A stretch of 64,000 nucleotides of DNA from contig NZ_JBFCVL010000002.1 in the NCBI RefSeq assembly GCF_040712075.1, positions 1-64,000 on the forward strand. The letters run 5' to 3'. The notes under the pieces are model-generated. The model was not told the origin of the DNA. It searched no databases and saw only the letters and a program-made list of their open reading frames with translations. Below, in pieces: positions 13,309-17,824 of this stretch. Made by a program: the position numbers and the translations under genes. Positions within the stretch are counted from its first letter, which is position 1. Every line of letters begins with the position of its first letter. Source of the DNA: Fodinicurvata sp. EGI_FJ10296 (GTDB taxonomy: Bacteria; Pseudomonadota; Alphaproteobacteria; DSM-16000; Inquilinaceae).

Positions 13309-14721
13309 ATGTCCGAAGCGATTTCGAAAGTCTTCGACCTGATCAAGGAACACGACGTCAAATACGTCGACCTCCGCTTTACCGATCCAAGGGGCAAGTG
13401 GCAGCATACCGCCCAGCATGTCAGTACGATCGACGAGGACGTCTTCACCGACGGATTCATGTTCGACGGATCGTCCATCAACGGCTGGAAGGACATCAAC
13501 GAGTCGGACATGTCGCTGATTCCCGACGCGTCATCCGCCGTCATGGATCCGTTCTCGGCGCAACCCAGCCTGATTCTGTTCTGCGACGTCTACGAGCCAT
13601 CCACCGGTCAGTCGTATAACCGCGATCCGCGCTCGGTGGCGAAGAAGGCGCAGGACTACATGGCGTCTCTGGGGATCGGCGACCGCGCCGTGTTCGGCGC
13701 CGAGGCGGAGTTCTTCGTTTTTGACGACGTTCGCTTCGAGCAGTCCATGCACCAGGGCTACTATCATCTTGAAAGTAGCGAGATTCCATCGGCTTCCGGC
13801 AAGGTGTTTCCCGAAGGCAACATGGGACACCGCCCCTACATCAAGGGCGGCTATTTCCCGATTCCACCCGTCGACAGCGGCGCCGATCTCCGTGCGGAAA
13901 TGCTGTCGGTGATGGGAGAAATGGGTCTGGTGATCGAGAAGCACCACCACGAGGTGGCGCCGGCCCAGCACGAACTCGGCACGAAATTCGGTACGCTGGT
14001 CGAGCATGCCGACCAGATGCAGATTTATAAATACTGCGTCCACATGGTGGCCCAGGCCTATGGTAAGACCGCGACGTTCATGCCGAAGCCGGTCAAGGGC
14101 GACAACGGCTCGGGGATGCATGTTCACCAGTCGATCTGGAAAGAGGGCCAACCGACATTTGCCGGATCCGGCTATGCAGATCTTTCCGAGACCGCCCTTT
14201 ATTATATCGGCGGCATCATCAAACACGCAAAGGCGCTGAACGCCTTTACCAACCCGTCGACCAACAGCTACAAGCGCCTCGTCCCCGGCTTCGAAGCGCC
14301 CGTGTTGCTTGCCTATTCCTCGCGGAACCGGTCGGCTTCCTGCCGTATTCCCTATGCGACCAGCCCGAAGGGCAAGCGGGTGGAAATCCGGTTCCCGGAT
14401 CCGACGGCGAATCCCTATCTGGCCTTCTCGGCGATGCTGATGGCCGGGCTTGACGGCATCCAGAACAAGATCCATCCAGGCGACCCGATGGACAAGAACC
14501 TCTACGATCTTCCCGCAGAGGAACTGAAGGACATTCCGACAGTCTCCGGCTCGCTGCGGGAAGCACTGACCGAGCTCGAAAAGGATCACGAGTTCCTGAC
14601 CAAGGGCGATGTCTTTACCAGCGACATGATCGAAGGCTACCTCGATCTGAAATGGGAAGAGGTCTATAACTTCGAACACACGCCGCACCCGATCGAATTC
14701 CAGATGTATTTCTCCGTCTGA
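13309..14721 (+). CDS. glnA: Glutamine synthetase, type I
   Basis: Dodecameric GSI enzyme joining ammonia and glutamate with ATP. 470 residues, standard. Signatures: [17 protein letters not shown] near the N-terminus, metal-binding [15 protein letters not shown]-binding [16 protein letters not shown], and NLYDLP with the adenylylation Tyr near residue 397. The ribosome site is AGGAAACAGGAA before ATG 13309. Presence of the Tyr motif and the adjacent glnB argue for PII/GlnE control by adenylylation. A strong terminator follows. Confidence 0.98.
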
Positions 14722-14742
14722 TTACGTCGGTATCGACTGCTC

Positions 14743-14779
14743 AATCCGCGTCCCGGGACCACCGGGGCGCGGATTTTTT
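14743..14779 (+). terminator. Rho-independent terminator after glnA
   Basis: AATCCGCG/CGCGGATT plus CCCGG/CCGGG form a long GC-rich stem, followed by six T in total. It lies 22 bases after the glnA stop. Confidence 0.9.
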
Positions 14780-14901
14780 GTGTCCGCCATCACCACGCGC
14801 GTTGCGTGACGTAGCCACATGGGCCCTGCCCCTTTAGTGCTTGAGGTCGCCCGTGATCCGCGCAATGGTCCGCTTGAGCAGAACAAAGCTGAGATGCCCG
14901 C

Positions 14902-15099
14902 ATGAGCAGAGACGACATGAAAACAAACTCACACGATCAGCAGCAACCAAAACCGCCCGGAAAGCCGGGCCAGTGGAGATTGTTCGCAGTCTGGGCCCTG
15001 ATATTCGGTATCGGAATCGGCTTTTTCGCGGGCTATGTCATCGGAGTCGATGTCGGCAAGGATTCCATCACGATGCTCGACGCCGAACCGACGCCCTGA
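14902..15099 (+). CDS. Small single-pass membrane protein, function unknown
   Basis: 65 residues. A polar N-terminus (about 25 residues, rich in K, Q, P) is followed by one hydrophobic segment, LFAVWALIFGIGIGFFAGYV, with glycines at near-helical spacing (GIGIGFFAG), and a short acidic tail. Start ATG 14902; ATG 14917 is also possible. The ribosome site is weak (GAG about 11 bases upstream). It is isolated behind the glnA terminator and upstream of an SOS-type promoter. No family is recognised; the membrane segment suggests a real gene. Confidence 0.55.
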   Translation: MSRDDMKTNSHDQQQPKPPGKPGQWRLFAVWALIFGIGIGFFAGYVIGVDVGKDSITMLDAEPTP

Positions 15100-15127
15100 A
15101 TGTCCCGCTGACGACGTTCTCGTTCTG

Positions 15128-15156
15128 TTGACATCACTGCGTCGTTCCCTTAGTGT
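15128..15156 (+). promoter_or_regulatory. Sigma-70-type promoter of the 35-residue ORF
   Basis: TTGACA at 15128-15133, a spacer of exactly 17, then TAGTGT at 15151-15156. The -35 is perfect and the -10 weak. A LexA-type site overlaps the spacer and the -10. Confidence 0.6.
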
Positions 15157-15158
15157 TC
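15144..15158 (+). promoter_or_regulatory. LexA (SOS) box, GTTC-N7-GTTC
   Basis: GTTCCCTTAGTGTTC matches the alphaproteobacterial LexA direct repeat GTTC-N7-GTTC exactly. It covers the end of the spacer and the -10 of the promoter at 15128-15156, where a bound repressor would block RNA polymerase. The second GTTC also begins a 14-base palindrome, GTTCTATTTAGAAC (15155-15168). Confidence 0.65.
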
Positions 15159-15185
15159 TATTTAGAACAGGAAGGGAACATAACG

Positions 15186-15293
15186 ATGTCGGATCAGGAA
15201 CTCGCGAATCGGTTCGCTTGCGAGACCGCAACGGTGCTCGTCTTTCTCGGATCGCTGATGGCGGTTCTGTTCGTTCTTCCGCCCGGTGCCTGA
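15186..15293 (+). CDS. 35-residue membrane protein, possible SOS gene
   Basis: Starts MSDQELANRFACETATVLVF and continues through a hydrophobic stretch to a VLPPGA end: a short amphipathic or charged N-terminus, one transmembrane helix of about 20 residues from TATVLVF to LFVLP, and almost no tail. AGGAAGG lies about ten bases before ATG 15186. The LexA box inside its promoter suggests DNA-damage control. Caulobacter SidA, a 29-residue SOS-induced membrane protein that blocks division, has the same architecture; sequence homology is not claimed. The frame is too short for statistics to prove coding. Confidence 0.6.
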   Translation: MSDQELANRFACETATVLVFLGSLMAVLFVLPPGA

Positions 15294-15305
15294 CCAAACG
15301 GGGGT

Positions 15306-15725
15306 TCAGCCGCTTTTGGCGGGAAGAGCGCGGGAGCGCCGGTCGTCCCCTATGGCGACATAGGTGAACATCCCCTCGGTCACCTGTACGAGGTTCTGGC
15401 CGCCGCGCCGCCGGGCATAGGTCTGCACCTTGATCCGCATCGACGTCCGACCTTCGTTTTCGAGCGAGGCATAGCAACTGACAAGGTCGCCGACGAATAC
15501 CGGCTGCATGAATGTCATCGCGTCGATGGCGACCGTGGCAACCCGGCCTCCGGCGCGCTCGTAAGCGATGACGCTGCCGGCGATGTCCATTTGCGACAGC
15601 AACCATCCGCCGAAGATATCGCCGTTCGGATTCGTGTCGGCCGGCATGGCTATGGTTCGTAATGCGACCTCGCCAGCCGGCGGAGCCGCCACTTCCAAAC
15701 GCGCCGTTTCAAGATCGCTGGTCAT
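15306..15725 (-). CDS. Acyl-CoA thioesterase, hotdog fold (YciA-like)
   Basis: 139 residues. Hydrolyses acyl-CoA to free acid and CoA. The family signature of the 4HBT/YciA group is present: RTIAMPADTNPNGDIFGGWL with the catalytic Asp region, then DIAGSVIAYERAGGRVATVAID and FMQPVFVGDLVSCYASL. It ends in a short basic tail. Expected to be a cytosolic oligomer. It is transcribed away from parE, sharing the 15726-15814 divergent promoter region. Acyl chain preference cannot be read. Confidence 0.9.
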   Translation of the reverse strand: MTSDLETARLEVAAPPAGEVALRTIAMPADTNPNGDIFGGWLLSQMDIAGSVIAYERAGGRVATVAIDAMTFMQPVFVGDLVSCYASLENEGRTSMRIKVQTYARRRGGQNLVQVTEGMFTYVAIGDDRRSRALPAKSG

Positions 15726-15814
15726 GATCGTCCCTTTTCATCGGCGATTAACGATGTCTGCCACAGCGTATCAACTCTTTCACCACCGCTGCTAATGCTA
15801 TATCCGACACGGCT

Positions 15815-17824
15815 ATGACGAAGAGCGATCGAGCAGACCCCATGAACGACGACCTGTTCCAGCCACAAGACGGCACGACCGGCAATTACGGTGCCCAGGA
15901 CATCGAGGTCCTGGAGGGTCTGGAGCCCGTCCGCCGCCGGCCGGGCATGTATATCGGGGGTACCGACGACCGCGCACTCCACCACCTCGTCGCCGAGGTG
16001 CTGGACAACGCGATGGACGAGGCCGTTGCCGGCCATGCGACATGGATCGAGATGGCCATGCAGGAGGACGGATCCGTCACCGTTCGGGACAACGGGCGTG
16101 GCATTCCGGTCGACGACCATCCGAAGTTCCCCGGCGTCTCGGCGCTGCAGGTGATCATGACCACCCTTCATTCCGGCGGCAAATTCTCCAACAAGGTATA
16201 CGCCACCTCGGGAGGCCTGCATGGTGTCGGGCTGTCGGTCGTCAATGCCCTGTCCAGTCGTCTGACGGTCGAGGTTGCTCGGGATCGGACCCTCTGGGCA
16301 CAGGAGTATTCGCAAGGCGCGCCCCTCGGCGCACTGGAGAATCGCGGCCATACCCAGAATCGTCGCGGGACGGCGATAACATTTCTGCCCGATCCCGAGA
16401 TATTCGGCGATGCCGCCCGATTGCGGGCGGATCGGCTGTTTCGCATGGCCCGGTCAAAGGCCTATCTCTATCGCGGCGTCGAGCTGCGCTGGACATGCCC
16501 GCCATCGCTGATTGCACCGGATACTGGCGTGCCGGAAGATGCGGTACTGCATTTTCCGAACGGGCTCGCGGATTTCCTTGCGACGGCATTGGACGGGCGG
16601 GAAACGACAACGCAGGCGTCATTCGCAGGCGTGGCCAAATTGGCCGATGCCGGCGCACGGGTGGAATGGGCGATTGCCTGGCCGGAGGATGACGAAGGCT
16701 TCGTTCATTCCTATTGCAACACGGTGCCGACCGCCCAGGGCGGCACTCACGAGGTCGGGCTGCGCAACGGTCTGCTGAAAAGCATCAAGGCCCACGCGGA
16801 TATGGCCGGCAACAAGCGTGGTGCGTCGGTCACGGCCGAAGACATAACAGCCGGCGCCGCAATCCTGTTGTCCGTGTTCATTTCCAATCCGCAATTCCAG
16901 GGGCAGACCAAGGAAAAACTGGCCACTCCGGAAGCGACCAGGATTGTAGAGACAGCCATCAAGGACCGTTTCGACCATTGGCTGTCCGCCGACACGGCAT
17001 CCGCCTCAAAGCTGCTGGAACGCTTCGTGGAGCGGGCTGACGAGCGGGCGCGGCGGCGCAAGGAACGGGAAACGACACGGAAAACCGCGACGCGCAAGAC
17101 AAGATTGCCCGGCAAGCTGTCCGACTGCTCCCGCACCGATCGCCGCAATACAGAAGTATTTCTGGTCGAGGGCGATAGCGCCGGCGGCTCCGCCAAAGCC
17201 GCACGGGATCGACAGACTCAGGCCGTCCTTCCCTTGCGCGGCAAAATCCTGAATGTCGCCAGCGCGTCCGCCGACAAGATGTCCGGCAACCAGGAGATCA
17301 GTGACCTGGTTCAGGCGTTGGGCTGCGGCACCCGGCGCGACTACGACGGCGCCCGGCTGCGCTACGACCGCGTCATCATCATGACTGACGCCGATGTCGA
17401 TGGCGCTCACATCGCCTCGCTGCTGATGACGTTCTTTTACAAGGAAATGCGGGGACTGATCAGCGACGGCCGACTCTTCCTGGCCCAGCCTCCGCTGTAC
17501 CGCCTGCAGGCCGGCGGCACATCGGTCTATTGCCGGGACGATGCCCATAAGGACGAGGTCATGCGCACGACCTTCAAGGGCCGGTCGAAAGTTGAAATCA
17601 GCCGATTCAAAGGACTGGGTGAAATGCCGCCCGCCCAGCTCCGCGACACGACGATGGATCCGGCCAAGCGCCAACTGTGGCAGGTGACGATCCCGGATCG
17701 TGCGGAGCCCGAAGAAAGTGCCGCCACCGCCGGGCTGGTCGAACAGTTGATGGGCCGCAAGCCCGAGTTACGCTTCCGCTATATCCAGGAACACGCCCCC
17801 TCGGTGCGCGATCTCGACGTTTGA
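15815..17824 (+). CDS. parE: DNA topoisomerase IV subunit B
   Basis: 669 residues. ATPase subunit of the decatenase ParC2ParE2. Seen: EVLEGLEPVRRRPGMYIGG and EVLDNAMDEAVAGHA (GHKL ATP site), DNGRGIPVDDHP, HSGGKFSNKVYATSGGLHGVG, then the TOPRIM domain with EGDSAGGSAKAARDRQTQAV, PLRGKILNV and DADVDGAHIASLL. The length and the IRY-type end (RFRYIQEHAPSVRDLDV) point to ParE rather than GyrB, which is longer. Start ATG 15815; ATG 15842 (MNDDLFQ) is a good alternative. Confidence 0.94.
   Translation: MTKSDRADPMNDDLFQPQDGTTGNYGAQDIEVLEGLEPVRRRPGMYIGGTDDRALHHLVAEVLDNAMDEAVAGHATWIEMAMQEDGSVTVRDNGRGIPVDDHPKFPGVSALQVIMTTLHSGGKFSNKVYATSGGLHGVGLSVVNALSSRLTVEVARDRTLWAQEYSQGAPLGALENRGHTQNRRGTAITFLPDPEIFGDAARLRADRLFRMARSKAYLYRGVELRWTCPPSLIAPDTGVPEDAVLHFPNGLADFLATALDGRETTTQASFAGVAKLADAGARVEWAIAWPEDDEGFVHSYCNTVPTAQGGTHEVGLRNGLLKSIKAHADMAGNKRGASVTAEDITAGAAILLSVFISNPQFQGQTKEKLATPEATRIVETAIKDRFDHWLSADTASASKLLERFVERADERARRRKERETTRKTATRKTRLPGKLSDCSRTDRRNTEVFLVEGDSAGGSAKAARDRQTQAVLPLRGKILNVASASADKMSGNQEISDLVQALGCGTRRDYDGARLRYDRVIIMTDADVDGAHIASLLMTFFYKEMRGLISDGRLFLAQPPLYRLQAGGTSVYCRDDAHKDEVMRTTFKGRSKVEISRFKGLGEMPPAQLRDTTMDPAKRQLWQVTIPDRAEPEESAATAGLVEQLMGRKPELRFRYIQEHAPSVRDLDV

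Follow-up and report, generated by a model that had tools for sequence, protein, structure and literature searches.

A candidate SidA-like division brake of 35 residues under a double LexA-type operator in an alphaproteobacterium

The 64,000 nucleotides of Fodinicurvata sp. EGI_FJ10296 analysed here (the whole stretch is called the window) contain a 35-codon open reading frame (ORF) preceded by two facing LexA-type boxes, and this gene is probably a DNA-damage division brake that annotation has missed. The full reading, in which an SOS-induced single-pass peptide stops cell division in a SidA-like manner, is given a probability of about 0.6. It is highly probable that the frame is a translated peptide controlled by LexA, and reasonably probable, by analogy with known systems, that this peptide is a division inhibitor.

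According to the mechanism proposed, LexA placed on the two boxes, which cover the promoter and the ribosome site, would repress the mini gene, and the RecA-driven cleavage of LexA after DNA damage would switch it on. The product would be a 35-residue single-pass peptide of the inner membrane, with a short N-terminus inside and an uncharged helix and tail. It would most likely bind the late septal synthesis machinery (FtsW/FtsI/FtsN), and division would then be halted until repair is complete, as it is by SidA in Caulobacter. A block of late division is proposed because of the precedent set by SidA, DidA, YneA, ChiZ and SosA.

In the literature searched, an SOS division inhibitor is named for Caulobacter and for none of the other alphaproteobacteria, and no description of the mini-protein family defined here for relatives of Azospirillum and Inquilinus was found; most subscription papers lay outside this search, and a prior mention is possible. 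The analysis offers concrete candidates with a defined promoter in Azospirillum picis, A. endophyticum, A. halopraeferens and Skermanella aerolata, as well as a method, as fast-drifting peptides can be traced through their operator.

The locus and its operator

The features of the locus, with their positions in the window, are the following:

13309-14721, plus strand: glnA, upstream syntenic marker (NCBIfam GlnA above its cut-off)
15116-15130, plus strand: possible third LexA-like site GTTCTCGTTCTGTTG, with one mismatch, overlapping the -35
15128-15133, plus strand: -35 hexamer TTGACA, perfect, read from the sequence
15144-15158, plus strand: LexA-type box 1 GTTCCCTTAGTGTTC, exact GTTC-N7-GTTC, position conserved
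15151-15156, plus strand: putative -10 TAGTGT, weak (3 of 6 matches), 17 nt from the -35
15144-15179, no strand assigned: composite operator of two inverted boxes, which form a 36-bp inverted repeat (15 of 18 pairs)
15165-15179, minus strand: LexA-type box 2 GTTCCCTTCCTGTTC, exact match, position conserved
15169-15175, plus strand: ribosome binding site AGGAAGG, within box 2, read from the sequence
15186-15293, plus strand: 35-codon ORF MSDQELANRFACETATVLVFLGSLMAVLFVLPPGA with one hydrophobic helix, ATG at 15186, stop at 15291-15293
15306-15725, minus strand: thioesterase gene, convergent, syntenic marker (Pfam 4HBT)
15815-17824, plus strand: parE, syntenic marker (NCBIfam parE_Gneg above its cut-off; Pfam DNA_gyraseB and others)

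The initial annotation had described a perfect GTTC-N7-GTTC repeat over the spacer and the -10 of a promoter, followed by AGGAAGG and a 35-codon frame for one membrane helix. The exact box and the coordinates of these elements were confirmed, and a second exact box on the minus strand is added here. The two boxes face each other at a distance of 6 bp; box 1 occupies the promoter spacer and the weak -10, and box 2 overlaps the ribosome site. With regard to the promoter itself, the perfect TTGACA stands, but the putative -10 agrees poorly with the consensus and a promoter scan called no site at this position. The 14-base palindrome GTTCTATTTAGAAC previously reported is present, but it is imperfect (central T-T) and is just the centre of the 36-bp inverted repeat; no other 36-bp palindrome of the window reaches 14 of 18 pairs.

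The window contains five exact GTTC-N7-GTTC boxes against 2.38 expected from shuffles, in agreement with the earlier estimate of about two chance boxes per 64 kb, and five or more were found in 9 of 100 shuffles; a single box by itself is thus weak evidence. When the sites were scored with a matrix made of lexA, recA and (weighted) imu boxes, the possible third site at 15116-15130 obtained the top LexA-like score of the window, whereas boxes 1 and 2 scored 9.0 each (ranks 10 and 11). The means are 26.2 for lexA boxes and 24.1 for recA boxes, the other boxes of the family reaching 6.4-20.9, and this low score of the window boxes counts against strong repression.

A 65-codon one-helix ORF is also present between glnA and the operator (14902-15099); neither relatives at E < 0.2 in the loci gathered at that stage nor a Pfam family were found for it.

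Conservation within the family and across the class

The order is represented by one family of 17 genomes. At the DNA level, the 221-bp region had no match among 61 genomes except in the window's own, and for this reason the gene neighbourhood was used as a guide, the loci being located through the thioesterase gene and read beyond its 3' end. The composite pattern GTTC-N7-GTTC-N2-20-GAAC-N7-GAAC occurs in 13 of the 17 family genomes and the reversed pattern, taken as control, in none (0/17). There is one composite site per genome, except in G016, where a second match falls inside a 706-codon frame. An ORF of 32-43 residues with one helix is found in 16 of the 17 genomes, G007 being the one that has none. 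Among the genomes with the ORF, G004 shows one mismatch in the second half-site and was located by profile, the operator of G008 is interrupted by the contig end, and G010 bears one exact box; G001 and G003 were located through the operator and then seen to encode a similar peptide. Most family matches obtained with profile A1 are circular, because this profile contained 13 family peptides; the ORFs counted were taken from loci reached through the anchor gene or the operator, G004 being the profile case. Box, frame and membrane helix, whose joint retention in related genomes had been put forward as a check by the initial annotation, are kept together in relatives.

The thioesterase gene adjoins the mini ORF in 13 of the 16 genomes that carry it; in G001 and G003 the ORF lies beside parE only and in G004 beside glnA. 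As all 16 ORFs are found beside thioesterase, parE or glnA, one ancestral neighbourhood is indicated. A glnA homologue is also found near the mini ORF in loci L023/L037 and L138. Of the 13 genomes whose two boxes face each other, 11 have 3-6 nt between the end of box 2 and the ATG, the exceptions being G006 (15 nt) and G001 (11 nt). Of 15 family rows, 14 show a TTGAC/TTGAT/CTTGA motif 57 to 69 nt upstream of the start codon. The window operator is 8-9 bp shorter than that of most relatives and its boxes depart from the family pattern.

Codon changes between the ORFs of G005 and G012 are 9 synonymous and 1 non-synonymous, and for the six g3 genomes, compared in 15 pairs, the sums are 48 synonymous and 40 non-synonymous changes, which suggests a modest coding constraint among these six. 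The first half of the g3 ORFs (L109-L112, L114 and L122) is near-invariant in nucleotides, synonymous sites included, perhaps owing to operator or translation constraints. Box-free relatives of 45-50 residues were observed in L139 (G005), L140 (G001) and L141 (G008); their C-terminal helix resembles the window peptide (GSL/GSV motif).

Outside the family, homologues were detected by means of two peptide profiles. Profile A2, run against 385 genomes of the class, gave nine positive genomes at E<=0.001 and no match in the other 376; five of the nine belong to the family and four do not (G066, G189, G284 (family f51), G198 (f64)). Profile A3, run against the 31 genomes behind named loci, gave 11 matches at E<=0.05 and none in 20 genomes, A. 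canadense among them. All nine A3 matches at E<=1e-3 have exact boxes: they correspond to A. picis, A. endophyticum, A. halopraeferens, Azospirillum sp. OGB3, an Azospirillum metagenome-assembled genome (MAG), S. aerolata and a Methylocystaceae MAG, and two other records repeat known loci. The two weaker matches have no exact boxes and look like chance. Each of the 11 outside-family homologues found by peptide profile (four with A2 and seven with A3) has at least two exact boxes. In the complete set of 26 members, at least one exact box lies within 140 nt of the ATG in 26 and at least two in 24, counts that follow by construction where a member was located through the operator, but not for the 11 found outside the family by profile. 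Three exact boxes at near-fixed spacing are seen in A. picis, A. endophyticum, the Azospirillum MAG and G066.

The Methylocystaceae MAG retains the thioesterase-parE neighbourhood. There is no fixed partner gene, as the neighbours in the Azospirillum, Skermanella and f51 loci examined differ from glnA, thioesterase and parE. In A. halopraeferens (L227) and Azospirillum sp. OGB3 (L228), the mini ORF has a gene for an AAA-type ATPase downstream, in the same orientation.

Across the class, the composite pattern was found in 17 of the 385 genomes and the control in one. Four of the 17 are family genomes; in the other 13, the pattern precedes a mini membrane ORF in five (according to a fixed rule), lexA in one and a 67-residue frame in one. 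The remaining six precede neither, and five of them lie inside frames of 290-697 codons. The mini-ORF rule accepted 9 of 14 family elements, 62 of 20,000 random positions and none of the 56 single-box sides of the window's own genome, so a mini ORF cannot be predicted from one box by itself.

Several of these loci deserve mention in their own right. In L194 (G072), L196 (G131) and L197 (G322), from two other families, a double operator and a one-helix ORF of 34-38 residues lie just upstream of dnaE (DNA polymerase III alpha, the replicative model being the best), and in two of the three an ABC ATPase, lolD-like by eye, lies on the other side. The sidA gene of Caulobacter likewise lies near dnaE. 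In L200 (G280) the ORF after the composite operator encodes 43 residues with one helix and has a G6PD gene nearby; in L202 (G353) the operator precedes the 67-residue frame, which has a hydrophobic start.

It could be proposed, although the odds lie somewhat against it, that the alphaproteobacteria have an old, class-wide checkpoint made of single-helix peptides (27-43 residues) under LexA operators with several boxes, and that these peptides change so quickly that they are revealed by operator and locus only. SidA would then be the one characterised case, and the glnA-thioesterase-parE locus of the window and a lolD-dnaE locus would be two homes of the system.

The peptide and its possible function

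The window peptide has a best 19-residue hydropathy of 2.25, and a single-sequence structure model predicts a helix at residues 3-30 with a mean pLDDT of 90.4. In 20 aligned members, position 9 is always Glu or Asp and no charged residue is found beyond it; Tyr21 is present in 18 of the 20, and Gly27 and Gly31 are common. This charge pattern suggests an N-in/C-out topology with an uncharged tail. A conserved helical face was not significant in the same 20 members (p 0.53), and so there is no direct sign of a single binding surface.

When the window sequence is left out of the profile, the window ORF is not recognised (E 1.5; rank 2 among 1577 ORFs), and a family-only profile places it at E 10 and rank 6; its membership is therefore based on operator, neighbourhood, size and helix and not on a sequence score. 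The E-values of the window ORF with the profiles of alignments A1 and A2 are circular, as both include its sequence. Used alone as a query, the window peptide gave nothing real in the 17 genomes, apart from two weak matches inside 348-codon frames. Five mini peptides and the 65-codon ORF were compared with Pfam and no family was obtained; a lone NCBIfam match for one of these queries (E 0.15) was judged meaningless.

The closest precedent is SidA, a LexA-controlled protein of 29 residues from the inner membrane of Caulobacter crescentus that acts on FtsW (PMC4211646, in part). Compared by description, the window gene resembles it in having about 30 residues (35), one membrane helix, an SOS-type promoter and an alphaproteobacterial host. 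On the other hand, around 97% of Caulobacter SOS promoters have one LexA box (PMC12700426, in part), whereas 24 of the 26 members described here have at least two. DidA, also from Caulobacter, is likewise a small single-helix division inhibitor acting after DNA damage, but it has 71 residues and is SOS-independent and driven by DriD (PMC4211646, in part). SidA, YneA, ChiZ and SosA are SOS-induced mini membrane proteins that act on late division (PMC4211646 and PMC13396833, both in part); binding to FtsW TM7 has been modelled at low confidence for ChiZ, SosA and SidA and has been studied for YneA (PMC13396833, in part). YneA, ChiZ and SosA come from other phyla, and YneA and ChiZ carry a LysM domain that the window peptide does not have.

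The main rival to a division inhibitor, considered unlikely, is a TisB/DinQ-type membrane toxin, likewise SOS-induced, that would depolarise the membrane and slow growth with no role at the divisome. TisB of E. coli is an amphipathic toxin with an RNA antitoxin. Both TisB and DinQ are SOS-regulated single-helix peptides of similar size, so that length, LexA-type control and the single helix fit this proposal, and DinQ has been described as an SOS-regulated single-transmembrane toxic peptide with an RNA antitoxin (PMC3567139, in part). However, no Rfam RNA was matched in 14700-15820, a mild counter-argument as an unlisted antisense RNA is possible. Equally mild is the argument from the helix and tail, which are uncharged in all 20 aligned members, unlike the amphipathic TisB. 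Against a toxin could also be mentioned that the peptides of two relatives gave no match at E<=1 in plasmids and phages, in a search of low sensitivity due to the short queries.

Another proposal, rather improbable, is that the peptide, induced by SOS, would be a small subunit or a regulator of a different membrane complex, such as a protease, a transporter, an oxidase or an envelope enzyme. Tiny single-pass subunits are common in membrane complexes, the box-free relatives in L139, L140 and L141 suggest that the fold is also used outside SOS, and the ATPase gene of the two Azospirillum loci would be in line with such a role; nevertheless, no partner gene is constant across the whole set.

It is also rather improbable that the gene is decaying in the window species, in such a way that operator and position have been inherited and the peptide may not work. 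The window peptide retains Glu9, Thr12 and Gly18, but it is the most divergent member, having lost Tyr21 and the Gly-His-x-x-Gly tail, and its operator shows the shortening and the atypical boxes already described. However, both boxes, the Shine-Dalgarno sequence, the start, the length and the helix are intact, and the GC3 of the ORF (0.69, against 0.76-0.77 in the neighbours) also speaks against decay. An SOS-induced inhibitor of late division is the preferred reading of the peptide.

The repressor

The LexA consensus of alphaproteobacteria is GTTC-N7-GTTC, the Caulobacter box being GTTCttgttatGTTC (PMC12700426, in part). In the family, GTTT-N7-GTTC precedes lexA in all 16 genomes read (the lexA of G015 was left out, as it was a sub-cut-off match only), and 15 of 16 recA loci have a box, which reads GTAC-N7-GTTC in 14 of them and is exact in the other; G014 has none. 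In the window's own genome, GTTCTTGTTATGTTC is located before an IMS-family (Y-family polymerase-like) gene and GTTCTCTTTTTGTTC before an ImuA-like gene (E 1.3e-19, under the curated cut-off). Control of the short single-helix ORF by LexA is well supported by sequence comparison.

It is very improbable that a different dimeric repressor uses the palindrome as its operator and that GTTC-N7-GTTC is incidental. In favour of this, the site is symmetrical over 36-45 bp and, unlike the lexA and recA boxes, the family boxes prefer C at position 5 and A at position 10, but the homologues from Azospirillum and other genomes bear LexA-like boxes, some of them T-rich, in other arrangements, and G383 has the composite operator at lexA.

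In this last genome, an alphaproteobacterial one of 1.2 Mb, a near-perfect composite double box lies directly before lexA (L192), whose identity was confirmed. Upstream of lexA, 8 of the 16 family genomes read carry in addition an exact box oriented away from the first one, so that the pair is divergent and not facing (L145-L147, L150, L153, L156, L157 and L161).
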